The notes below the pieces were generated by a model, which was not told where the DNA came from, did no database searches, and saw nothing but the letters and a program-made list of their open reading frames with translations. DNA of 64,000 nt, from the NCBI RefSeq assembly GCF_000661915.1, contig NZ_CP007509.1, forward strand, positions 124,001 to 188,000, written 5' to 3'. This document shows, one piece after another, positions 3,090 through 47,522 of the stretch; position 1 is the stretch's first letter, and each line of letters starts with the position of its first letter. A program made the position numbers and the translations under genes. The DNA comes from Stutzerimonas decontaminans. GTDB lineage: Bacteria > Pseudomonadota > Gammaproteobacteria > Pseudomonadales > Pseudomonadaceae.

Positions 3090-4568
3090 TTATTCCTTGT
3101 CCAGCTTGCCGACCAGCGACAGGGTGAAATCCGCGCCCATGTACTTGAAGTGCGGACGCACGCTGAGGCTTACGCGGTACCAGCCCGGTTCGCCCTCGAC
3201 GTCGCTGACGTTGACCTGGGCGGCGCGCAGCGGACGACGGCTGCGTACTTCGGAGCTTGGGTTCTCCTGATCGGCGACGAACTGGCGAATCCACTTGTTC
3301 AGTTCCAGCTCAAGGTCGGTGCGCTCCTTCCAGGCACCGATCTGCTCGCGCTGCAGCACCTTCAGGTAGTGCGCCAGGCGGTTGACGATGAACAGGTAGG
3401 GCAGCTGGGTGCCGAGCTTGTAGTTCAGTTCGGCGGTCTTGCCTTCCTCGCTGTTGCCGAAGAACTTCGGCTTCTGTGCCGAGTTGGCGGAGAAGAACGC
3501 GGCGTTGTCACTGCCCTTGCGCATGGTCAGGGCGATAAAGCCTTCTTCGGCCAGCTCGTACTCGCGACGGTCGGAAACCAAAACCTCAGTTGGGATCTTG
3601 GTCTCTATCTCGCCCATGCTCTCGAAGTGGTGCAGCGGCAGGTCTTCCACTGCGCCGCCGCTCTGCGGGCCGATGATGTTCGGGCACCAGCGGAACTTGG
3701 CGAAGCTGTCGGTCAGGCGGCTGGCGAAGGCGTAGGCGGTGTTGCCCCACAGGTAGTGCTCGTGGCTGCCGGCGACGTTTTCCTTGTAGACGAAGCTCTT
3801 CACCGGGTTGTCTTCCGGATCGTAGGGGTTGCGCAGCAGGAAGCGCGGTACGGTCAGGCCGACGTAGCGGGCATCTTCCTGTTCGCGGAAGCTCTGCCAC
3901 TTGGTGAATTGCGGGCCTTCAAAATGATCCTTGAGGTCCTTCAGATCCGGCAGGCCGGTGAAGCTTTCCAGCCCGAAGAATTTCGGGCCGGCAGCGGCGA
4001 TGAACGGCGCGTGGGACATGCTGGCGACGCTGGCGACGTACTGCATGGTCTTCACGTCGGGCGCGCTGGGGTCGAAGAAGTAGTTGGCGATCAGCGCGCC
4101 GACCGGCTGGCCACCGAACTGGCCGTACTCGGCGGTGTAGATGTGCTTGTACAGGCCGGACTGGACGATCTCCGGGCTGTCCTCGAAGTCGTCCAGCAGG
4201 TCCTGCTTGGAGGCGTTGAGCAGCTCGAGCTTGATGTTCTCGCGGAAGTTGGTGCGATCCACCAGCAGCTTGAGGCCGCGCCAGGAGGATTCCAGTGCCT
4301 GGAACTGTGGGTGGTGGAGGATCTCGTCCATCTGCCGGCTGAGCTTGGCGTCGATCTCCGCGATCATGCGGTCGACCATCGCCTTCTTCACCGGCTCGTT
4401 TTCGTTCTGCGGCTTGAGCAATTCTTCGATAAAGGCCGAGACGCCGCGTTTGGCGATGTCGTAGGCCTCGTCATCCGGGGTCAGGCGGGTTTCGGCGATG
4501 ATGCGGTCGAGGATGCCGCCTTCGGCGAGGGAGTTGCCGTGCTCGACGGCGGCTGCGCTAGTGGTCAT
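3090..4568 (-). CDS. tssC: T6SS contractile sheath large subunit TssC (VipB)
   Basis: 492 residues, full length for TssC/VipB. It assembles with TssB into the cytoplasmic contractile sheath that propels the Hcp tube. Family sequences are plain throughout: ILDRIIAETRL near the N-terminus, LESSWRGLKLLVDRT, and a C-terminal half with DLELELNKWIRQFVADQENP. It lies between tssB and tssE, with a 26-base gap upstream. No truncation or frameshift is seen. Confidence 0.96.
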   Translation of the reverse strand: MTTSAAAVEHGNSLAEGGILDRIIAETRLTPDDEAYDIAKRGVSAFIEELLKPQNENEPVKKAMVDRMIAEIDAKLSRQMDEILHHPQFQALESSWRGLKLLVDRTNFRENIKLELLNASKQDLLDDFEDSPEIVQSGLYKHIYTAEYGQFGGQPVGALIANYFFDPSAPDVKTMQYVASVASMSHAPFIAAAGPKFFGLESFTGLPDLKDLKDHFEGPQFTKWQSFREQEDARYVGLTVPRFLLRNPYDPEDNPVKSFVYKENVAGSHEHYLWGNTAYAFASRLTDSFAKFRWCPNIIGPQSGGAVEDLPLHHFESMGEIETKIPTEVLVSDRREYELAEEGFIALTMRKGSDNAAFFSANSAQKPKFFGNSEEGKTAELNYKLGTQLPYLFIVNRLAHYLKVLQREQIGAWKERTDLELELNKWIRQFVADQENPSSEVRSRRPLRAAQVNVSDVEGEPGWYRVSLSVRPHFKYMGADFTLSLVGKLDKE

Positions 4569-15567: not shown

Positions 15568-15579
15568 TCTCGGTATTAG

Positions 15580-15603
15580 TGGTGCCAGGGACGGAACCGA
15601 ACC
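15580..15603. repeat. Left attachment site, decayed tRNA-Phe 3' end
   Basis: 24 bases matching the 25-base tRNA-Phe 3' end at 23593-23617 except for one deleted C and one T-to-C change. This is the expected direct repeat left by integration into the tRNA. The differences indicate decay of the non-functional copy, and may impair excision. Confidence 0.8.
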
Positions 15604-16801: not shown

Positions 16802-17404
16802 TCAAACCACGCGCAGCACGGGCGGCAGCTTCGGCCCGAAGGGTGCGCCGGGTGCGAACGGATCGGGTAGCGCTCCCTCTGGTGCGGTGCGGATGAAGTC
16901 AGCCATAGCCAGTAGGCAGGCTTTATACAGCGGTCCGCCATTGCCCCAGGCGGCGCCGTGCCCCGTTGCGCTGTCCTCCAGGCAGGCAATAAAGACCAGC
17001 GCCGTAATGTTGGTGTCGCCGTCGCGGATCGCTTGTGCTCGATGCGCGGGGTTCACGCTCAGCAGATCGCACAGCCGATCAAATCCAAGTGCCGCCGTGG
17101 TACTGGTGCTTTGCAGGATGACGGCCCGGCCTATCCCGATCAGCGCCCGGTTCATACCTTCCAGCGATTCGGCTTCGTGCGCCCTGGCTTGCTGCTCCAG
17201 GTTGGCAACGGCTGCGGCAGTGAATGGCAAAAAGGCTTTCAGCTTGGCGGCTTTACGTCGCAATGCGCGGCGCTCTTGGTGGATCGTTGCGCGCTCATGA
17301 CAAAAAAGGCGACACACCCGGCGCATGGCGATTAGTTGCGTGCTCACGCTGGCGCCTGGCTTGTCGGCTATGTTGGCGAGTGCTCGAATCTGGCTGGCTT
17401 TCAT
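16802..17404 (-). CDS. Hypothetical protein of the integrative element
   Basis: 200 residues, no family recognised. A helical N-terminal half with a basic segment (ERRALRRKAAKLKAFLPF) is followed by GMNRALIGIGRAVILQ and a Pro-rich tail (GALPDPFAPGAPFGP). No signal peptide or membrane segment is apparent. The start ATG overlaps the stop of the preceding gene by 4 bases (17401-17404), so it is the distal gene of the primase-ATPase operon and is likely co-expressed with replication functions. Confidence 0.65.
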   Translation of the reverse strand: MKASQIRALANIADKPGASVSTQLIAMRRVCRLFCHERATIHQERRALRRKAAKLKAFLPFTAAAVANLEQQARAHEAESLEGMNRALIGIGRAVILQSTSTTAALGFDRLCDLLSVNPAHRAQAIRDGDTNITALVFIACLEDSATGHGAAWGNGGPLYKACLLAMADFIRTAPEGALPDPFAPGAPFGPKLPPVLRVV

Positions 17405-17736
17405 GGGTTCGGCTCCTTTGGTGCGCCGTCTAGTTCGGCATCAGCCCAGCGCCAGCGAGCGGCGGCCAGGGCTTCGGAATAGGTCATTGGCTGGCCGACC
17501 ATGTAGCCAATCGGCTGGCCTGCTCGGGTGATCCTCCAGGCGGTGCGCTTCGGTTCGCTGGTGGGCAAGTGCGTCGAGTCGTTGGCCGCGTTCAGTTCGG
17601 CCAGCAGCTCGGCAAGGTGCTCGCGTATGAAGTGGCGCAAGGGGTCGGTGATGCGCTCGACGGGCGAGACGCGCAGCCGGTCGGCCACGCTCTCGACAGT
17701 CAGACCAGCCCGGCGCAGGTAGTCCAAGGCGGCCAT
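17401..17736 (-). CDS. Hypothetical protein with TubC-N-like docking fold
   Basis: 111 residues. The first 50 (LDYLRRAGLTVESVADRLRVSP to LAELLAELNAA) follow the pattern of the small TubC N-terminal docking domain: LRxAGLxV, DRLRVSP and a final xxLLAxL helix. The rest ends with MVGQPMTYSEALAAARWRW. Such domains mediate protein-protein contacts, so this may be an adaptor for the ATPase encoded just upstream. It overlaps both neighbours (TAATG with the ATPase stop, 4 bases with the next gene). Confidence 0.65.
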   Translation of the reverse strand: MAALDYLRRAGLTVESVADRLRVSPVERITDPLRHFIREHLAELLAELNAANDSTHLPTSEPKRTAWRITRAGQPIGYMVGQPMTYSEALAAARWRWADAELDGAPKEPNP

Positions 17737-19256
17737 TAGCCGAAGTACTCCGCGTTGTCTTCGGTCTGTACCCCCTTTGGATCGGTAACATGGTTACAAC
17801 CCGCGCCGTTACTGGCTTTCAGCCCGTTTTGATCGGTAACGGCAGCGCTCCGTGTTACGGTTTCAAAATCGCTGGAAGCCGCATGGTTGCTGGCTTGTAA
17901 CCGTGTTACCGATTTTCCGGGGGTGTCGGCGGACAGATACCGCTTAAAGGCTTCCTCGAACTGCTCCCGTTTGTACCCTTTGGCAGTCTTGAAGCCGATG
18001 CGATGGGCGCCGGGCTTGATCCCGAACTCAGAAAGCCGCTTGGAAAGCTGGTGCGGTGTCATGGGCTTGCCCCGGTTCCACGCTGCCCACGGTGCTTCCT
18101 CATCTTCGGCAAGTGCCTCCAATAGATCAGCGGTCGCCAGACGCTCGGTGCGGCGGGTGTCGAAAGCGTCGCGGATTGAAGCCAGCAGCTCAGCGCCAAT
18201 GCTCGGCGTGTCTTCCTCCAGGCCGTGAAGTGTCGCGGCGGCGTTGCGGGCAATGCGTGGCCAATTGCCCCCGGCCACTTCGGCAACCGCTAGCAGCGGC
18301 TCCCAGCAGTCGTTGGCGCGGTCGTTCAAGCCATCCACCTCGGCGGGCCTGGCCGTTCGGATGGCTTCCCGATTGTCGATGGCGAAGCGCGCCAGCTTGC
18401 TTACCAGCTCGGCGAAGGCAGCGGGGTCGGCGTGGCGAATCTTTACGGTACGCTCCCCCGGCAGCTTGCGGCGCAGGCGCAGCGGAATGCTCCGGTCGGA
18501 CAGGGTGTCTGCAATCTTCCCGATGCCGCACAGCGCCTTTGCGCCCCATACGTTGAACCGGGTGGGCATGTGGTCATCGCCGACGCAGCGAATCACGAAA
18601 GCGGAGTCGCGGGTAAACCCGGCATTGAGAATGCCCCGCGCTTCCTCATGCTCGGCCAAGAAGGCGTCCACCTCGTCAATCAGCAGTGTCGGCGTCCACA
18701 GCTCCAGGGCGCGGAACAACGCAGCCGGTGCGATATTGGAAACGGCCAGCGGACGGCAGGCGAGACGCGACAGCACGCCAAGCATTACCGTTTTCCCGCA
18801 ACGCTTCTCCGGGGCGGTGATGTTGGCAATCGGTGCGACGTTCACCACGTCCACAAACCAAGTGAAGGCGGCCCAAAGCGCGGCGGCGTGGACCGTGGCC
18901 GGGTCGGCTATCACATGGCGTCGAATGATCGTGGTCAGCGCTTCCAGCAGCTCGGCACCGTCTACCAGTTCAGGCCATAGCGTCACTTCGGGGAACAGCT
19001 CGTCGGTGCCCGCCGTAGCTTCGTTGGCGGCGCTGGTCAGCTTGTCCAGGTCAGCCATGCTTACCGTCTTGGCTTCCTTTACCGCGTGGCGAATGCGTGC
19101 CCAGCGCGCCGGGTCGGCGTCTCTCACCTGGCGCAGCAAGGCCAGCACCTCGGGTTCGAAGATGGCGCCGGGATCTTGTTTGCTCCTGGCGAGCGCGTCC
19201 GCGATGGGATCGGGTGCCGGTACAGGTTCGGGGATCAGTTCGGCCAGGTTGCTCAT
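17736..19256 (-). CDS. DUF3631 replicative helicase-like ATPase
   Basis: 506 residues from the ATG at 19254-19256, which overlaps the primase stop as ATGA. The DUF3631 core has a Walker A variant APEKRCGKT (148-156) and a Walker B region TLLIDEVDAFL with acidic pair Asp194-Glu195. LWPELVDGAELL precedes it and SIPLRLRRKLPGE follows, both usual in this family. C-terminal residues after about 410 are low-complexity. DUF3631 proteins are paired with Toprim primases in satellites and plasmids and are thought to act as replicative helicases; that role is inferred. Confidence 0.88.
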   Translation of the reverse strand: MSNLAELIPEPVPAPDPIADALARSKQDPGAIFEPEVLALLRQVRDADPARWARIRHAVKEAKTVSMADLDKLTSAANEATAGTDELFPEVTLWPELVDGAELLEALTTIIRRHVIADPATVHAAALWAAFTWFVDVVNVAPIANITAPEKRCGKTVMLGVLSRLACRPLAVSNIAPAALFRALELWTPTLLIDEVDAFLAEHEEARGILNAGFTRDSAFVIRCVGDDHMPTRFNVWGAKALCGIGKIADTLSDRSIPLRLRRKLPGERTVKIRHADPAAFAELVSKLARFAIDNREAIRTARPAEVDGLNDRANDCWEPLLAVAEVAGGNWPRIARNAAATLHGLEEDTPSIGAELLASIRDAFDTRRTERLATADLLEALAEDEEAPWAAWNRGKPMTPHQLSKRLSEFGIKPGAHRIGFKTAKGYKREQFEEAFKRYLSADTPGKSVTRLQASNHAASSDFETVTRSAAVTDQNGLKASNGAGCNHVTDPKGVQTEDNAEYFG

Positions 19257-20173
19257 TGGTTCGCCTCCCGCCACTGGCGCAGGTCGTTGAAGTCGGAAAG
19301 GTTCAGCGGCTCCGCTCCACCCCAGGGCGGCAGCACCAGGCCACAGCCAAGCACGGCGGCGGCTTGAGTGGCTGCGGTGCGTCCGGGATTGCCTTCGGTC
19401 TGGCGGTCGTCGTCTCCCGCGATAATCAACGGGCTCTCGGGGTAGTGCCGTTGGAGCTGGCGCCCGACTTCCAGCAGGTTGCCCGCATTCATGGCACAGG
19501 CCACGGCGGCGCCGTTGTGCTCGTGGATGGTCGCGCCGGTTGCCCAGCCTTCGCAGACGTACAGCGGTTGGCCTGGCTCCAGTGCGCCGATGGGCGAATA
19601 GCAGCCCTTCACCCGGCCCCCGGACAGAAACCGCTTGCCGCCGTCCGCTGCGATGCGTTGCAGGTTGACCAGTACGCGCCCCAGGTAGAGCGGCACCAAT
19701 AGAACGTCGCCACGTTGGCGCAGGCCGTGCGGCCGGCAGCCCTTGGCGCTCAGGTAAGGGTGATGCGGATCAGCCGGGGCGCTGGTGCTCCACAGTCGCT
19801 GCGCCTCGATGGCTGCGGCTTGCTGGCGCTGGTGCTGCTCCGCTTCGCGCTGGTGGCGGGCCTGCTCAACCCGCTGGCGGATCAATTCGGCCTCCATCGG
19901 GTCGGCTGGTTTGCGGCTGCTCCAGGTGCTCGAACCTCCCGCCTTCCAGCTACCGAACGCACCCGACGCGATGCCGTCCAGGTGTAGGACGTACCAGCCG
20001 TTAAGCGTGCCGGGCTTGTCGTCTGGCACGCGGAAACGGTGAATGGTGCCGTCTGCTACTGGCAGCCAATCCAGCGGCCCGAACGTGGCTTGCAGGGCGT
20101 CGCGGAAGGCCAGTTCGGCTTTCTCCAGGCAAGCCGATCCCCTCGGCGCACGGGCGCCGTTTTGAATGGTCAT
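19253..20173 (-). CDS. Toprim-domain DNA primase of the element
   Basis: 306 residues. The N-terminal part carries the P4-type primase motif region (DGIASGAFGSWKAG, 66-79) and a glutamine-rich coil (about 98-120). The C-terminal Toprim domain has the catalytic glutamate in YVCEGWATG (Glu208) and the acidic run Asp254-256 in IIAGDDDRQ. No zinc-ribbon cysteines are evident, so it may be a stand-alone Toprim primase. It would prime replication together with the DUF3631 ATPase. Its N-terminal GSACLEK repeats in the AlpA-like protein at 21216-21470. Confidence 0.88.
   Translation of the reverse strand: MTIQNGARAPRGSACLEKAELAFRDALQATFGPLDWLPVADGTIHRFRVPDDKPGTLNGWYVLHLDGIASGAFGSWKAGGSSTWSSRKPADPMEAELIRQRVEQARHQREAEQHQRQQAAAIEAQRLWSTSAPADPHHPYLSAKGCRPHGLRQRGDVLLVPLYLGRVLVNLQRIAADGGKRFLSGGRVKGCYSPIGALEPGQPLYVCEGWATGATIHEHNGAAVACAMNAGNLLEVGRQLQRHYPESPLIIAGDDDRQTEGNPGRTAATQAAAVLGCGLVLPPWGGAEPLNLSDFNDLRQWREANQ
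20120..20141. repeat. 22-bp repeat shared with 21417-21438
   Basis: A 22-base segment inside the primase 5' region recurs with one mismatch at 21417-21438 in the 5' region of the AlpA-like gene. Both are read in the same frame and encode GSACLEK. It could be a recombination scar, a shared N-terminal tag or an embedded regulator site. Confidence 0.6.
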
Positions 20174-20176
20174 GAT

Positions 20177-20494
20177 TTAGCCCTCTGCGGTCGGGGACGG
20201 TGCGACGGCCTTGCGGCAGTGTTGTTCCTCCACCGCGCCGTTCGAGGTATCGACCAGCCTGCTCGACAGCTTGCCCAGCGAGTTGATCAGCCAGCCGATA
20301 TTTCGGGCGGTGTCCTTCTCCAACTCGCCAGCGTCGGCGGTGAAGGCCAGCAGCTCACCAATTGCGGCGATTCCAAGCGTCAGGTTCAGAACCTCGCAAT
20401 CGGCTGTGCGCTCGATGGCTTCGAGCTTGTCATCCGAGTAATCGTTAAGAACCATCGGATCGGGCAGTAGGTGGCTCCAGCAAACGGGCTTCAT
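20177..20494 (-). CDS. Hypothetical protein of the integrative element
   Basis: 105 residues, family not recognised. It is acidic, with helical segments NLTLGIAAIGELLAFTADAGELEKD and NIGWLINSLGKLSSRLVD, and an N-terminal Trp-containing MKPVCWSHLLPDP. No signal peptide. It overlaps the preceding 52-residue gene by 4 bases and ends 3 bases before the primase start, so all are one transcript. Confidence 0.7.
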   Translation of the reverse strand: MKPVCWSHLLPDPMVLNDYSDDKLEAIERTADCEVLNLTLGIAAIGELLAFTADAGELEKDTARNIGWLINSLGKLSSRLVDTSNGAVEEQHCRKAVAPSPTAEG

Positions 20495-20649
20495 TGCACA
20501 CCCCCTACGGTTTCCAGGGAGCGGGCGCGGGCCATCGCTTCGTTGTAGCGGCGCAGGCGGACGGACAGGGACGAATCAGCGCGCAGCGCGGCGAAGGCGC
20601 GGGCCTTCCAGGCGGCGGCATGGGTGGACGGATTGCGGGTGGTTTGCAT
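20491..20649 (-). CDS. Small basic protein, first gene behind C4-like RNA
   Basis: 52 residues starting MQTTRNPSTHAAAWKARAFA; basic, Ala/Arg-rich and helical. The ATG at 20647-20649 follows a strong AAGGAG ribosome site (20657-20662). A longer in-frame reading to 20949 would run through the terminator and structured RNA and is rejected. Its ribosome site lies in sequence complementary to the C4-like RNA, so its translation and read-through into the primase operon are probably repressed by that RNA. Position matches icd of P1 and kil of P4, but no homology is claimed. Confidence 0.75.
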   Translation of the reverse strand: MQTTRNPSTHAAAWKARAFAALRADSSLSVRLRRYNEAMARARSLETVGGVQ

Positions 20650-20654
20650 GGGTG

Positions 20655-20694
20655 TAGCTCCTTGGATTGTGGAGCTGCCACGAACCGTCGCCAA
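20655..20694 (-). promoter_or_regulatory. Second antisense target pair and hairpin over ribosome site
   Basis: In the RNA sense, UUGGCGA (20694 to 20688) and AUCCAAGG (20667 to 20660) are complementary to UCGCCAA and CCUUGGAU of the C4-like RNA. The second segment includes the AAGGAG of the 52-residue gene. In addition AGCUCC / GGAGCU (20676-20671 with 20661-20656) can form a hairpin that hides the ribosome site, and GUGGCAGCU (20681-20673) can pair instead with AGCUGCCAC (20713-20705), giving alternative states. Confidence 0.65.
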
Positions 20695-20704
20695 ACGATT
20701 AAGG

Positions 20705-20785
20705 GTGGCAGCTGTACGCGGGTTGGCGAACCGGCATCCAAGGGAACCGGCAGACCTTTCGGTCTCCCACGCACAGCCGCCATAA
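20705..20785 (-). ncRNA. C4/CI-like antisense RNA
   Basis: The RNA can fold as a three-way junction. The closing stem is GCUGUGCGUGGG (20777-20766) with CCCGCGUACAGC (20722-20711), 12 pairs including G-U. It encloses a hairpin AGACC-GAAA-GGUCU (20765-20752) and a second hairpin with GCCGGU arms whose 10-base loop shows CCUUGGAU (20743-20736). Single-stranded UCGCCAA (20729-20723) follows. Both exposed segments are complementary to target pairs on either side. This matches the architecture known for C4 RNA of P1/P7 and CI RNA of P4. Exact ends are estimated. Confidence 0.72.
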
Positions 20786-20798
20786 CGGACTGCGGGCA

Positions 20799-20832
20799 CA
20801 AAAAAAGCGCCAGCTGTCTGCGGTGCGGCGCT
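20799..20832 (-). terminator. Intrinsic terminator in leader ahead of C4-like RNA
   Basis: Stem AGCGCC (20832-20827) with GGCGCT (20811-20806), 15-base loop, followed on the minus strand by seven T residues. It sits between the first antisense target pair and the C4-like RNA, so RNA pairing could control read-through here. Confidence 0.75.
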
Positions 20833-20838
20833 TGTGCG

Positions 20839-20861
20839 CCTTGGATAGTTCGGGTCGCCAA
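20839..20861 (-). promoter_or_regulatory. First antisense target pair (seqA-like)
   Basis: UUGGCGA (20861 to 20855) followed by AUCCAAGG (20846 to 20839) in the RNA, in the same order as the second target pair at 20694-20660. Both are perfectly complementary to UCGCCAA and CCUUGGAU of the C4-like RNA. Only a few bases separate this pair from the terminator stem. Confidence 0.65.
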
Positions 20862-20892
20862 ACCCGGTCGCTGAATTTGCAGCAACGGGCGA

Positions 20893-20921
20893 ACCATAGC
20901 GCCGCTGGTGCTTATTGGCAA
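20893..20921 (-). promoter_or_regulatory. Candidate sigma-70 promoter for C4 leader and replication operon
   Basis: Minus-strand TTGCCA (-35, 20921-20916), 17-base spacer, TATGGT (-10, 20898-20893). Transcription would start near 20886, just upstream of the first target pair. Confidence 0.55.
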
Positions 20922-20945: not shown

Positions 20946-21215
20946 TCATTCGGTCGCCTCCGCGCTGGTGCTGCTCAGGTAGTAAAGGGCAACGCCGTTG
21001 TGGGTGATGCCGTCCTCATCCGTCAGAGTGACCCGCTCGGTGCGGATGGGGTGGCCAGCAGAGCGCAACTCCTTGATGCGCCCCCCAGGGTGCATGACGT
21101 GAAGCTCACGGCGGGCGGTGAACGTGTCTAGGGCGCCGATCCGTAGCCGTGCCAGCAGGCGGGCGCGCTGTGCTTCGACACTGGTGCTATGGCGCTGTGT
21201 TGTTTTGTCAGCCAT
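20946..21215 (-). CDS. Winged-helix HTH protein (HTH_39-like)
   Basis: 89 residues. RARLLARLRIGALDTFTARRELHVMHPGGRIKELRSAGHPIRT is the pattern of the small helix-turn-helix domains found in phage genes, with recognition helix around GGRIKELRSAG, followed by a wing-like strand pair (ERVTLTDEDGITHNGVALYYL). It probably binds DNA, perhaps regulating the element. It starts immediately after the AlpA-like stop codon and ends just before the promoter of the C4-like leader, closing the regulator operon. Confidence 0.75.
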   Translation of the reverse strand: MADKTTQRHSTSVEAQRARLLARLRIGALDTFTARRELHVMHPGGRIKELRSAGHPIRTERVTLTDEDGITHNGVALYYLSSTSAEATE

Positions 21216-21470
21216 TTATGCAGCCTCCCCGCGTTGAGCAGCGAGCGAATCGCACCACTGCAAAATTTCCGATTCCACCCAAGCGACCGACTTCGGCCCA
21301 AGTGTTACTTGAGCCGGGAAGGTTCCGGCAGCAATGCGCCGGTAAATTTCGGATGTGGAAAGGCTGGTGTAGTCCTTCACCTTGGCCATTTTGATAAAGC
21401 GGCGAGGGGGTGTGACTTTCTCTAGGCAAGCCGATCCCATAACCCCGTCGCGGGGCTTCGAAGTCATCAT
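21216..21470 (-). CDS. AlpA-family regulator / excisionase (second copy)
   Basis: 84 residues. The C-terminal 57 (MAKVKDYTSLSTSEIYRRIAAGTFP and WVESEILQWCDSL) are a clear AlpA-type MerR-like DNA-binding domain. The start at 21470 has a GGGAGG ribosome site made from the end of the preceding gene, giving a 27-residue N-terminal extension with GSACLEK; starts at 21440 or 21389 are possible. AlpA proteins activate integrase or excision genes in cryptic prophages. Two AlpA-like genes in tandem suggest divided roles, such as excision versus transcription. Confidence 0.85.
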   Translation of the reverse strand: MMTSKPRDGVMGSACLEKVTPPRRFIKMAKVKDYTSLSTSEIYRRIAAGTFPAQVTLGPKSVAWVESEILQWCDSLAAQRGEAA

Positions 21471-21472
21471 TG

Positions 21473-21655
21473 TTAAGCCTCCCGTTTGGTCAGGAAGGCG
21501 TCAACGAACTCGGGATTCCAGCGCACCGAGCGCCCAAAGCGAACCGGGGACGGAAAGCCTGGAGCCTTGCTCCAGCGCCAGAAAGTCGTGCGGGAAACCT
21601 GATAGCGTTCGCACAGCTCGGCTACAGGTCGGTAGATAGGGTTTTTGGTCTGCAT
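21473..21655 (-). CDS. AlpA-family / excisionase-like DNA-binding protein (first copy)
   Basis: 60 residues from the ATG at 21653-21655 (AAGGACC ribosome site). YRPVAELCERYQVSRTTFWRWSKAPGFPSPVRFGRSVRWNPEFVDAFL is the AlpA/excisionase winged-helix pattern, with helix-turn-helix around VSRTTFWRW and a final helix EFVDAFL. A longer in-frame reading to 21814 covers non-coding sequence. It is the first gene of the leftward regulator operon and faces the candidate plus-strand small RNA at 21767-21909. Confidence 0.85.
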   Translation of the reverse strand: MQTKNPIYRPVAELCERYQVSRTTFWRWSKAPGFPSPVRFGRSVRWNPEFVDAFLTKREA

Positions 21656-21730
21656 GGATTGGTCCTTGTGCAGTTGGTCAAAAACCCGAGGGGGACAGTA
21701 TGCCTCCGGTCCCCTAGGCGGGGTCATGCA

Positions 21731-21760
21731 TTGACGTATCAATGCCGGTGGCAATACAGT
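21731..21760 (+). promoter_or_regulatory. Candidate plus-strand promoter upstream of hairpin RNA
   Basis: TTGACG (21731-21736), 18-base spacer, TACAGT (21755-21760). It would drive rightward transcription into the hairpin series ending at the terminator at 21878-21909, divergent from the first AlpA-like gene. Confidence 0.4.
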
Positions 21761-21766
21761 CTGCGG

Positions 21767-21909
21767 CACACGCATACAACTGCGTGTTGTAGAAGCCCAT
21801 CTCAAAAGCTTCATCCCTCGGGGGTCGTTAACTGGCTTGCCGGTTACAGACGTTGGTAGCGTCTATCCCCATCGAAGGCCCAGCGTTGGTAGCGCTGGGC
21901 TTTTCTTTG
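21767..21909 (+). ncRNA. Candidate small RNA with twin identical loops
   Basis: No protein gene is on this strand here, yet it ends in a good terminator. Three hairpins follow one another: AACTGG-CTTG-CCGGTT (21830-21845), AGACG-TTGGTAG-CGTCT (21848-21864) and GCCCAGCG-TTGGTAG-CGCTGGGC (21878-21900), the last followed by TTTTCTTTG. The last two have the same 7-base loop. The start is estimated from the promoter candidate. Function unknown; it could be a regulatory RNA of the element. Confidence 0.42.
21878..21909 (+). terminator. Plus-strand intrinsic terminator inside element
   Basis: 8-bp stem GCCCAGCG / CGCTGGGC with 7-base loop TTGGTAG, followed by TTTTCTTTG. No minus-strand T-tract, so it acts on rightward transcription. 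Confidence 0.7.
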
Positions 21910-22194: not shown

Positions 22195-23418
22195 TTAAGC
22201 CTTGCGCTTGATGCTCACCACGTTGGCGCCGCCGCATAGCGCGTCTATCGAGTCGGCCCAGGCTTGCATCATCTCCCGGCGCTGCTCCAGATAGGTGGCG
22301 TGGTTGTAGGTGTCGCGGATTTCGTCGTTGTCGCCATGGGCTAACTGGCGTTCGATCCAGTCCCGGTTATAGCCGCGTCCGTTGAGTTCGGTGCTCAGCA
22401 AGTGGCGGAAGCCGTGGCCGGTCTGGCGCCCTTCGTAGCCCATCAGGCGCAGCGCCTTGTTTATCGTGTTCTCCGACATTGGCCTGTCGGGGTTCTGCTG
22501 CCCTGCAAACACTAGTGGGTAATCGCCCGTGATCTCCTTGAGCTGGCGCAGGATGGCGACGGCTTGGCGGGGTAGGGGCACCACATGCGGGCGGCGGGCT
22601 TTCATGCGCGCTTTCGGAATGGTCCAGGTCGCGCCGTCTAGATCGAACTCCGACCAGGGCGCCTGGCGCAGCTCACCAGGTCGAACGGCAGTCAGCACCA
22701 GCAAGCGGATGGCGCAGCGGGTCAGGGTGTTAAGCGTGGTCGATTCGATCTTGCCCAGCAGCTCGGGCAGTTCGGCAAAGGCAACGTGCGGATGGTGGCG
22801 GGTGGCTTTCGGTGGAGCGGCTACCACGTCCAGATCGGTGGCCGGGTTGGCTTCGACCACGCCACTAGCCAGACCGAAGCGGAATATCTGGTGTAGCCAT
22901 TGGCGAATCTTGCCAGCGGCGTTCAGCGTGCCCCGCGCTTCGACCTTGCGCACCAGTTCGACCAGTTCCGGGCGGGTGATGGCTTTAACCGGACGCGCAC
23001 CGATGCCGGGTATCAGGTCGTTTTCCATATACAGCCGCGACTTGTAGGCGGTGCTTTCGGCCCAGCGTGGCGCGTTGTAGGCGTACCACTCCCGCGCCAG
23101 TGTCTCGAACGTCACGCCATCGGCCCGTTGCGCTTGTTTGGCGGCTTTTTTCTCTGCGCTGGGGTCAGCCCCATGGGCCAGCAGTTCGCGTGCATCTGTG
23201 CGCCTCTGGCGGGCTTGCTGTAGCGACACGGCAGGGTAAGCGCCCAAGGCCAGCCGCTTTTCCTTTCCATCGAAACGGTACTTGAGGCGCCACAGCTTCG
23301 AGCCGTTGGGCGTGACCTCCAGATACAGCCCTTGGCCGTCCGTCAGCTTGTAGGGGCTGTCCTTGGGCTTGGCTACCTTGATCGCGCTGTCCGTCAGCGG
23401 CGTGGCTTTCCGTGGCAT
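22195..23418 (-). CDS. int: P4-type tyrosine integrase
   Basis: 407 residues. The N-terminal DUF4102-type domain (LTDSAIKVAKPKDSPYKLTD, LGAYPAVSLQQAR) is typical of P4-like integrases. Catalytic residues are Arg246 (AVRPGELR), His335 and Arg338 (HGFRH), His361 (LAHG) and Tyr376 (ATYLEQRREMM), so it appears intact. ATG at 23416-23418 is favoured by a GAGG site 8 bases upstream; an upstream GTG at 23427 is in frame. It lies next to the tRNA-Phe 3' end, its presumed target. A GACCG/CGGTC inverted repeat at 23447-23459 may be an operator. Confidence 0.95.
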   Translation of the reverse strand: MPRKATPLTDSAIKVAKPKDSPYKLTDGQGLYLEVTPNGSKLWRLKYRFDGKEKRLALGAYPAVSLQQARQRRTDARELLAHGADPSAEKKAAKQAQRADGVTFETLAREWYAYNAPRWAESTAYKSRLYMENDLIPGIGARPVKAITRPELVELVRKVEARGTLNAAGKIRQWLHQIFRFGLASGVVEANPATDLDVVAAPPKATRHHPHVAFAELPELLGKIESTTLNTLTRCAIRLLVLTAVRPGELRQAPWSEFDLDGATWTIPKARMKARRPHVVPLPRQAVAILRQLKEITGDYPLVFAGQQNPDRPMSENTINKALRLMGYEGRQTGHGFRHLLSTELNGRGYNRDWIERQLAHGDNDEIRDTYNHATYLEQRREMMQAWADSIDALCGGANVVSIKRKA

Positions 23419-23459
23419 GGGGCGCACCTCGTAGGGGCATAAATTTGACCGAACCGGTC

Positions 23460-23545: not shown

Positions 23546-23592
23546 TTCTTGTGGGCTTTCGGGTGGTTTTGGCACCACCTGAAAACGAAAGG

Positions 23593-23668
23593 TGGTGCCC
23601 AGGGACGGAATCGAACCGCCGACACGGGGATTTTCAATCCCCTGCTCTACCGACTGAGCTACCTGGGC
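23593..23668 (-). tRNA. tRNA-Phe (GAA)
   Basis: 76 nucleotides with encoded CCA. The anticodon arm GGGGA-TTGAAAA-TCCCC gives anticodon GAA; the T arm carries GGTTCGATTCC and the acceptor stem pairs GCCCAGG with CCTGGGC. Its last 25 bases form the right att site of the integrative element, and the gene remains intact. Confidence 0.98.
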
Positions 23669-47343: not shown

Positions 47344-47522
47344 TGGCTCCCCAGCATGCCGCTGCCAGCGTAGGCCCTTGAACCCGAGAGTTCAAGGTGG
47401 CGACTACAGAGTACCTTAAGGCTTTCCGTCAGGCGGACATGCACACCGGCACCACGTGTAGCCTCCATGGTGTTGCTTATCGGGAGAGGGTCATCGCCGA
47501 CTGGCGAACATGCCAGGGAGTT
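47344..47522 (-). ncRNA. ssrS: 6S RNA (SsrS)
   Basis: Between zapA and ygfA, the conserved ssrS location. Recognised by Pseudomonas-type segments: CTCCCTGGC at the 5' end pairing with the GCTGGGGAG end, CCGGTGTGCATGTCCGC, GACGGAAAGCCTTAAGG and CACCTTGAACTCTCGGGTT. About 179 nt; ends are estimated. 6S RNA mimics an open promoter and binds RNA polymerase with sigma-70 in stationary phase. Confidence 0.92.

Follow-up and report, generated by a model that had tools for sequence, protein, structure and literature searches.

A probable C4-type antisense RNA switch in an integrated satellite-like element of Stutzerimonas decontaminans

A C4 family RNA with targets on both sides

The window analysed here, a 64,000-nucleotide stretch of Stutzerimonas decontaminans DNA (contig NZ_CP007509.1, positions 124,001 to 188,000), carries on its minus strand an RNA that is, by covariance model, a member of the Rfam C4 family. 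The locus around it (20655-20921) is very probably a C4-type immunity and replication switch of an integrated satellite-like element. Loops a′ and b′ of this RNA are exactly complementary, over 7 and 8 nt, to targets both upstream (a1, b1) and downstream (a2, b2), and b2, which overlaps the Shine-Dalgarno sequence AAGGAG, ends 10 nt from the ATG of a 52-aa ORF (Table 1). The initial annotation had listed these parts from the letters alone; on re-reading the sequence every element was found at its minus-strand position, and the exact complementarity claimed between the junction RNA and the two target pairs held for the 7-nt and the 8-nt match on each side. The family match, the complementarities, their co-variation in relatives, the overlapping leader hairpins and the predicted flip between them are established at the level of sequence.

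Table 1. Features of the RNA module and of the element that carries it (positions within the window)
Feature	Position	Strand	Remarks
tRNA-Phe gene	23593-23668		source of attL
attL core, tRNA-Phe 3′ end	23592..23617	-	
tyrosine integrase	22195..23427	-	79% identical to that of phiAH14b
HTH protein, excisionase-like	21473..21814	-	PHROG match; Pfam HTH matches below cut-off
AlpA-family regulator	21216..21470	-	Pfam
HTH_39 protein	20946..21215	-	Pfam
promoter TTGCCA-17-TATGGT	20893..20921	-	-35 TTGCCA 20916-20921, 17 bases, -10 TATGGT 20893-20898; would drive the leader/C4/operon transcript
C4 target leader (Rfam c4-a1b1)	20847..20899	-	hairpin 1 and a1 hairpin
isrK/seqA-like leader RNA	20800..20886	-	terminator at its end
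target a1 TTGGCGA (UUGGCGA)	20855..20861	-	in hairpin loop; from sequence
target b1 ATCCAAGG (RNA AUCCAAGG)	20839..20846	-	final GG = start of possible antiterminator arm 1
predicted antiterminator hairpin GGCGC-ACAA-GCGCC	20827..20840	-	fold prediction
intrinsic terminator	20800..20832	-	AGCGCC 20827-20832 with GGCGCT 20806-20811, then seven T
C4 antisense RNA, three-way junction	20701..20787	-	Rfam and fold
C4 loop b′ CCTTGGAT (RNA CCUUGGAU)	20736..20743	-	sequence and loop alignment
C4 loop a′ TCGCCAA (UCGCCAA)	20723..20729	-	sequence and loop alignment
target a2 TTGGCGA (UUGGCGA)	20688..20694	-	from sequence
predicted hairpin AGCUCC/GGAGCU	20656..20676	-	encloses most of the Shine-Dalgarno sequence, b2 in loop
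target b2 ATCCAAGG (RNA AUCCAAGG)	20660..20667	-	overlaps Shine-Dalgarno AAGGAG 20658-20663
52-aa ORF under b2	20491..20649	-	ATG at 20649
105-aa ORF	20177..20494	-	phrog_9173 (function unassigned)
Toprim primase-like protein	19253..20173	-	Pfam and PHROG
DUF3631 protein, putative ATPase/helicase	17736..19274	-	Pfam; function inferred
200-aa phrog_7215 protein	16802..17404	-	54% identical to phiAH14b_p18
attR core, imperfect copy of tRNA-Phe 3′ end	15579..15603	-	one mismatch and one gap relative to attL

A scan with the C4 covariance model, proposed in the initial annotation as a check, returned the C4 RNA (RF01695) at 83.8 bits over the full length of the model (1-87), and two leader models besides, c4-a1b1 (RF03163) at 62.9 bits and isrK (RF01394) at 57.8 bits. 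All three scores exceed the gathering cut-offs of Rfam release 15, which are 45, 46.7 and 50 bits respectively. C4 and c4-a1b1 are placed in clan CL00128; the isrK model has no clan, yet it overlaps c4-a1b1 and the leader terminator in both the window and phage P4.

The C4 RNA folds with a predicted energy of -51.6 kcal/mol (z -5.8), a value equalled by none of 200 shuffled sequences, and the predicted structure is the three-way junction that the initial annotation had described. Its further claim that both loops are exposed was confirmed for a′, which is fully open in the single-sequence fold, and only in part for b′, which is partly self-paired there, with unpaired probabilities along CCUUGGAU of 0.03, 1, 1, 1, 0.03, 0.01, 0.1 and 1. 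Unlike this fold of the window's C4, the Rfam C4 consensus places b′ inside an open loop.

Markov chains of like dinucleotide content yielded both exact targets in none of 20000 simulated leaders of 150 nt, and likewise in none of 20000 simulated downstream stretches of 60 nt. The promoter position is shared by relatives: in 52 of 107 loci the -10 box of the highest-scoring promoter-like site lies precisely 37 nt upstream of a1, and at least 9 of 12 consensus positions are matched in 43 of the 107 as against 6 of 110 control positions. The C4/CI-type architecture originally proposed is thus supported by the C4 covariance match, by both target pairs, and by the CI region of P4 matching the same model.

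Loops and targets change together in relatives

C4 RNAs were sought in 116 genomes, using search filters that lose some weak matches, and 117 matches were found in 49 genomes; an RNA switch of the P1/P4 type is by this count common in Stutzerimonas and its relatives. Four matches near contig ends in one genome (G058) were left out, giving 113 loci. Loops were taken from the alignment to the window's C4 (L001) and compared with the 125 nt upstream and the 60 nt downstream of each RNA. Runs of exact complementarity of at least 7 nt were present upstream of 103 of the 113 RNAs for a′ and of 74 for b′, and downstream of 86 for a′ and of 79 for b′; with targets of other loci that have a different loop sequence, such runs occurred in merely 1.9 to 3.4% of cases. 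For b′ the mean cognate run was 7.0 upstream and 7.0 downstream (permutation means 4.1 and 3.9, maxima 4.6 and 4.5), and for a′ it was 6.9 upstream and 6.2 downstream (permutation means 4.3 and 3.5, maxima 4.8 and 4.2). Because none of 10000 permutations reached the observed means, and the set comprises 83 different b′ and 53 different a′ sequences, the co-variation between these separate parts of the transcript is strong at the sequence level: loops and their own targets change together across the 113 loci. The set includes near relatives and the permutation ignores shared ancestry, so that the figures overstate the evidence; even so, a large number of changes in the loops have their counterpart in the targets. 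Conservation of the complementarities in related elements, on which the initial annotation had staked its reading, holds in these 113 loci.

Under a looser rule of at least 6 nt for both loops, 66 loci were complete on both sides, six had downstream targets only (L002, L052, L060, L061, L065 and L109) and 19 had partial sets. The remaining 22 had upstream targets (a full pair in 19, a1 only in three) but lacked both a downstream pair and an a2 of 7 nt. Genome G067 (3.2 Mb; C4 regions of 31-39% GC) carries 15 C4 RNAs (L066, L071, L075, L076, L078, L083, L084, L086, L092, L097-L100, L104 and L105), all with an a1 of at least 6 nt and 14 with a leader b1; none has a complete downstream pair, the reverse of the downstream-only loci. 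This abundance is reminiscent of the multi-copy C4-like sRNAs of Acinetobacter baumannii, for which passages of PMC5320573 report no targets.

The first gene 3′ of C4 varies by locus, from ORFs of about 52-61 aa like that in the window to ORFs of about 21-32 aa and longer genes. Among the first-gene proteins, that of L040 matched Bro-N and that of L095 a P22 antirepressor domain in Pfam; those of L002, L066, L067 and L088 matched no Pfam family. A coding frame running through the C4 RNA was considered and rejected: the frame continuous with the next ORF is open in 49 of 88 loci, as against 35 and 40 for the other frames, a difference attributed to GC.

The integrated element and its genes

The RNA module lies in an integrated satellite-like element of about 8.0 kb, extending from tRNA-Phe to an imperfect att copy. 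The genes are all on the minus strand, in the order integrase, HTH protein, AlpA, HTH_39, RNA module, 52-aa ORF, 105-aa ORF, Toprim, DUF3631, a 111-aa ORF and phrog_7215. The attR core was located by comparison with relatives, direct-repeat and pattern searches having failed to detect it; in the related loci L113 and L149 an att copy of about 100 bp lies at the far end of the element. The nearest named relatives of the primase are from Stutzerimonas stutzeri TS44 and S. kunmingensis. The 52-aa ORF, which matched nothing in Pfam or PHROG, occupies the place that kil has in P4. No capsid, tail, packaging, structural or helper gene was recognised by Pfam or PHROG in the 12 element ORFs scanned, some of which had no match at all. 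Both the att copy and the relationship to phiAH14b speak for the tRNA-Phe satellite named in the initial annotation, which is best called a putative one.

Among 67 primase loci taken from named genomes, nhmmer detected a C4 in 30. A conserved motif was also noted in the element; it consists of a small hairpin of the CGGCGC..GCGCCG type with GGGATCGGCTTGCCTGGAGAAAG behind it. One copy lies where the primase gene starts (20119-20165, minus strand) and another, with one mismatch, where the AlpA ORF starts (21416-21438, minus strand). With at most four mismatches the motif occurs at the primase gene or up to about 1.2 kb upstream of it in 21 of the 67 primase loci; it has no match in Rfam and RNAalifold supports it weakly.

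Overlapping hairpins in the leader

In the window's leader the last GG of b1 opens a potential hairpin, GGCGC-ACAA-GCGCC, the GCGCC of which also forms part of the 5′ arm of the terminator (AGCGCC...GGCGCT, then the T run). The two structures would therefore compete for the same bases. Fifty-two leaders have b1 and a T run. By the rule applied here both hairpins are present in 47 of them, and in 40 of these 47 the two share at least 3 nt. A 5-bp hairpin starting within the final 4 nt of b1 is present in 47 of the 52 leaders as against 508 of 2260 control positions. Such a hairpin occurs as well in 16 of 38 leaders lacking a T run, and may for that reason serve another role.

The three arms change together: most leaders have GGCGC/GCGCC/GGCGC, L059, L094 and L102 have GGCGG/CCGCC/GCGG, L091 has GGAGC/GCTCC/GGAG, and L072b has GGTGG/CCACC, with an overlap of only 2 nt. 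As a MAFFT alignment misplaced several arms, the arms were counted from structure-free anchors (the end of b1 and the start of the T run) in 36 non-redundant leaders. Complementarity to the middle arm averaged 4.69 for arm 1 (4.08 when permuted) and 5.22 for arm 3 (3.99 when permuted), each exceeding all of 20000 permutations, and the likeness of arms 1 and 3, at 4.03 against 3.61, was matched by 3 of 20000. Twenty-four further hits, among them P4, formed a second set, in which 21 leaders have b1 and a T run (the other three being L120, L178 and P4); all 21 retain complementarity of arm 1 (runs of at least 5) and arm 3 (runs of 4 to 7), without new changes.

The effect of C4 binding was modelled by masking targets in 40 leaders preselected for hairpin overlap, with the transcript assumed to start 20, 25 or 30 nt upstream of a1; these starts were fixed after the outcome of folding with promoter DNA included had been seen. 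In that earlier folding the window's leader showed no switch; of the 40 leaders, 11 had the terminator above 0.5 when free and 26 when b1 was masked. With a start at 25, the predicted probabilities of antiterminator and terminator in the window's leader were 0.97 and 0.01 when free, 0 and 0.88 with b1 masked, and 0.97 and 0.01 with a1 masked; the free leader gave 0.84 and 0.13 with a start at 20, and 0.56 and 0.37 at 30. For starts of 20, 25 and 30 respectively, 20, 11 and 14 of the 40 free leaders had the terminator above 0.5. Masking b1 brought this number to 36 at every start, and masking a1 alone gave 16, 11 and 16. The antiterminator exceeded 0.5 at equilibrium in merely 16, 15 and 21 of the free leaders. 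The P4 leader folds as a terminator with or without masking, and was therefore rejected as an example of such an attenuator; in its single free fold, the phiAH14b leader likewise forms the terminator. On these predictions the antiterminator is not shared by all loci; in many relatives the switch is less clean, and in P4 there is none.

Proposed mechanism and alternative explanations

We propose a single promoter for the leader, C4 and the replication operon. Polymerase reading through the terminator of the leader would make C4, which would then be excised from the transcript. In P1/P7 this cut is made by RNase P and leaves a stable RNA of about 77 nt. With its loops a′ and b′ the released C4 would bind a1/b1 on subsequent transcripts, and also a2/b2 at the Shine-Dalgarno sequence of the 52-aa gene. 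When C4 is absent, the GG of b1 would open the GGCGC-GCGCC hairpin and occupy the 5′ arm of the terminator, and transcription would continue; C4 bound to b1 would take the GG, the terminator would form, and transcription would stop. On b2, C4 would cover the ribosome-binding site. Its action at b1 and b2 would thus keep the primase and DUF3631 genes silent as long as the element is integrated, and would silence any incoming element that bears the same targets. Processing, termination, the silencing of the primase and ATPase genes and immunity to superinfection are inferred in this model.

The attenuation step itself, in which C4 binding at b1 exchanges antiterminator for terminator, is put forward tentatively, as a proposal short of probable. 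The overlapping hairpins offer a concrete mechanism for C4-dependent termination that can be tested in vitro. The same logic is known from pT181 and pIP501, where an antisense RNA prevents the antiterminator from forming and the terminator wins. The antisense RNAs of those plasmids come from the strand opposite the leader, whereas C4 would be excised from the very transcript that carries the leader and act through two short loops. In the titles and beginnings of abstracts found by our literature search, most subscription papers on P4 and P1 lying beyond its reach, a C4 antiterminator is not named; the word 'antiterminator' in passages of PMC4825925 refers to the AntQ/Q proteins.

The same C4 module could work with no competing hairpin at all. 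In that case C4 would act mainly at a2/b2 and block translation of the 52-aa ORF, Rho would end the transcript, and the hairpin at the end of b1 would merely present b1. Rho does end the untranslated transcript in P1/P7 and at the distal site of P4. We consider this explanation quite possible, if somewhat short of probable. It fits the overlap of a2/b2 with the Shine-Dalgarno sequence, the six of 113 loci with downstream targets only (L002 and L052 among them), the similar hairpin in 16 of 38 leaders lacking a T run, and the terminator folds of P4 and free phiAH14b; it does not account for the joint changes of arms 1, 2 and 3, nor for the additional 16, 25 and 22 of 40 leaders (starts 20, 25 and 30) that b1 masking moves to the terminator. 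Also against it are the 19 of 113 loci in which the upstream pair is complete while a downstream pair and an a2 of 7 nt are both lacking, since they indicate that the upstream site can act by itself.

The downstream site has a further property. Even without C4, the Shine-Dalgarno sequence is predicted to lie in a hairpin with b2 in its loop, and a stem of at least 5 bp is found at this position in 63 of 88 loci, compared with 45 of 352 controls set farther downstream. Removal of C4 alone therefore does not explain translation of the operon. This hairpin would by itself inactivate a read-through mRNA, as would be expected if the leader RNA were an active regulator like IsrK of Gifsy-1, titrating C4 off a2/b2 and turning the read-through transcript on in a two-RNA toggle. 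The leader's match to isrK at 57.8 bits points the same way, as do passages of PMC4825925 in which the read-through transcript of the Gifsy-1 isrK locus is translationally inactive and short IsrK activates its translation. In the same source, however, growth arrest by IsrK is stronger, not weaker, when STnc1160 is co-expressed, and the toggle adds to the C4 model and is not an alternative to it. We regard such a toggle as rather unlikely, while noting that by analogy with Gifsy-1 the leader RNA could act as a sponge for C4.

Taking pseudomonads and halomonads together, C4 may be a trans-acting attenuator ligand at an antiterminator that the last two bases of b1 open, with the Shine-Dalgarno hairpin acting as a further lock. 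The two loops a′ and b′ would then form a 15-nt code that sets immunity specificity, and the leader may titrate C4 and so release the operon; this joint reading is offered as a conjecture that we would not yet call probable.

It is improbable that the module is a relic in an immobile element, its RNA functionless today. The attR core does differ from attL by one base and one gap, and none of the 12 ORFs scanned could be recognised as a structural, packaging or helper gene; the loops and all four targets are nevertheless intact and match exactly, and the integrase, AlpA, primase-like and DUF3631 ORFs are all open. That the complementarity arose by chance in GC-rich DNA, for which only the shortness of each target speaks, is ruled out for practical purposes by three Rfam matches above gathering, by the absence of both targets from 20000 simulations on each side, and by loop/target co-variation across 113 loci.

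Relation to known systems

The C4 RNAs of P1/P7, the CI RNA of P4, IsrK as a structural SeqA homolog and the occurrence of C4 in Pseudomonadales are already in print (passages of PMC4825925, PMC5320573, PMC12197685 and PMC2864571). The window's RNA shares its family with that of P1/P7 through Rfam model RF01695; nhmmer found no C4 in the one stretch of P1 that was searched. In the layout of its targets the P1/P7 system resembles the window's locus. Its a′ and b′ loops likewise bind the target mRNA, b′ over ribosome-binding sites (passages of PMC5320573). The target mRNA there encodes an antirepressor (passages of PMC12197685), whereas in the window it carries the 52-aa ORF and the primase operon.

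In P4, the CI region matches the C4 model at 74.9 bits and the leader matches isrK at 60.8 bits, both over cut-off, while c4-a1b1 at 44.1 bits falls slightly below its 46.7; by covariance model, then, CI of P4 belongs to the C4 family. The order AlpA-like gene, RNA, small ORF and primase is also the same. P4 differs in having a single 777-aa alpha primase together with sid, delta and psu, where the window has separate Toprim and DUF3631 proteins; family profiles of sid, delta and psu matched none of the 12 element ORFs scanned, and the element is thus not of the strict P4 family. The P4 leader differs further in its lack of a predicted antiterminator switch.

A closer relative is phiAH14b of Pseudomonas sp. 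ANT_H14 (KU708005), an induced, probable satellite phage for which passages of PMC4936722 report induction and helper packaging. Besides the integrase and phrog_7215 proteins (79% and 54% identical, respectively), it has AlpA and a topoisomerase-primase in the same order as the window's element, and a C4 RNA at 3957-4043 (89 bits) with all four targets. It differs in size (16.8 kb against about 8.0 kb), in a helicase unrelated by BLASTP, in the unalike 111-aa ORFs before phrog_7215, and in its loops, the targets being TTGACGG and GCAAAAGG. The terms 'antisense', 'C4 RNA' and 'small RNA' are absent from the main text of PMC4936722, and our match places a C4 RNA in this induced probable Pseudomonas satellite. 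The hypothetical ORF p06 of phiAH14b (L184:3771-4253) overlies the unannotated C4 RNA, just as the annotated cI of P4 lies over the CI RNA; such ORF calls hide C4 RNAs.

The Salmonella prophage Gifsy-1 resembles the window in that the window's leader matches the isrK model and in that, in passages of PMC4825925, a terminated leader is followed by a stable RNA, STnc1160, seemingly cut from the read-through transcript; the same passages describe IsrK as a structural homolog of P4 SeqA. Downstream lies the antirepressor-like anrP in Gifsy-1, and a replication operon in the window. The C4-like Group 1 sRNAs of A. baumannii share a multi-copy C4 motif and apparent processing from longer transcripts (passages of PMC5320573); no targets in their own leaders are reported in those passages, whereas in the window both loops have targets on both sides.

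Three C4 RNAs in one genome

The genome of the window contains two further C4 RNAs, at 4317588-4317673 (plus strand) and 2047175-2047262 (minus strand), and the loops of the three differ. For the window's C4, predicted loop/target energies are -10.8 to -13.2 kcal/mol with its own targets and -5.2 to -8.5 kcal/mol with foreign ones. The C4 at 2047175 is also predicted to bind its own targets best, in one a′ comparison by a margin of just 0.3 kcal/mol. The C4 at 4317588 was classed as downstream-only; even so, its b′ loop is predicted to form one duplex upstream, at -10.1 kcal/mol. Across genomes, one of 560 ordered pairs within a genome was cross-reactive, compared with 3.0 expected, a low-powered test in which 26% of permutations were as low; among pairs of the own genus there was none in 32, compared with 0.5 expected and with 72% of permutations as low, again at low power. 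The paired loop and target sequences of the 113 loci predict which elements should exclude one another. At L182, a C4 locus of the window's genome, a tRNA gene lies about 360 nt upstream of C4. Two host RNAs were also recognised by Rfam within the window, Pseudomonas sRNA P10 at 2572-2643 and 6S RNA at 47344-47522, both on the minus strand.
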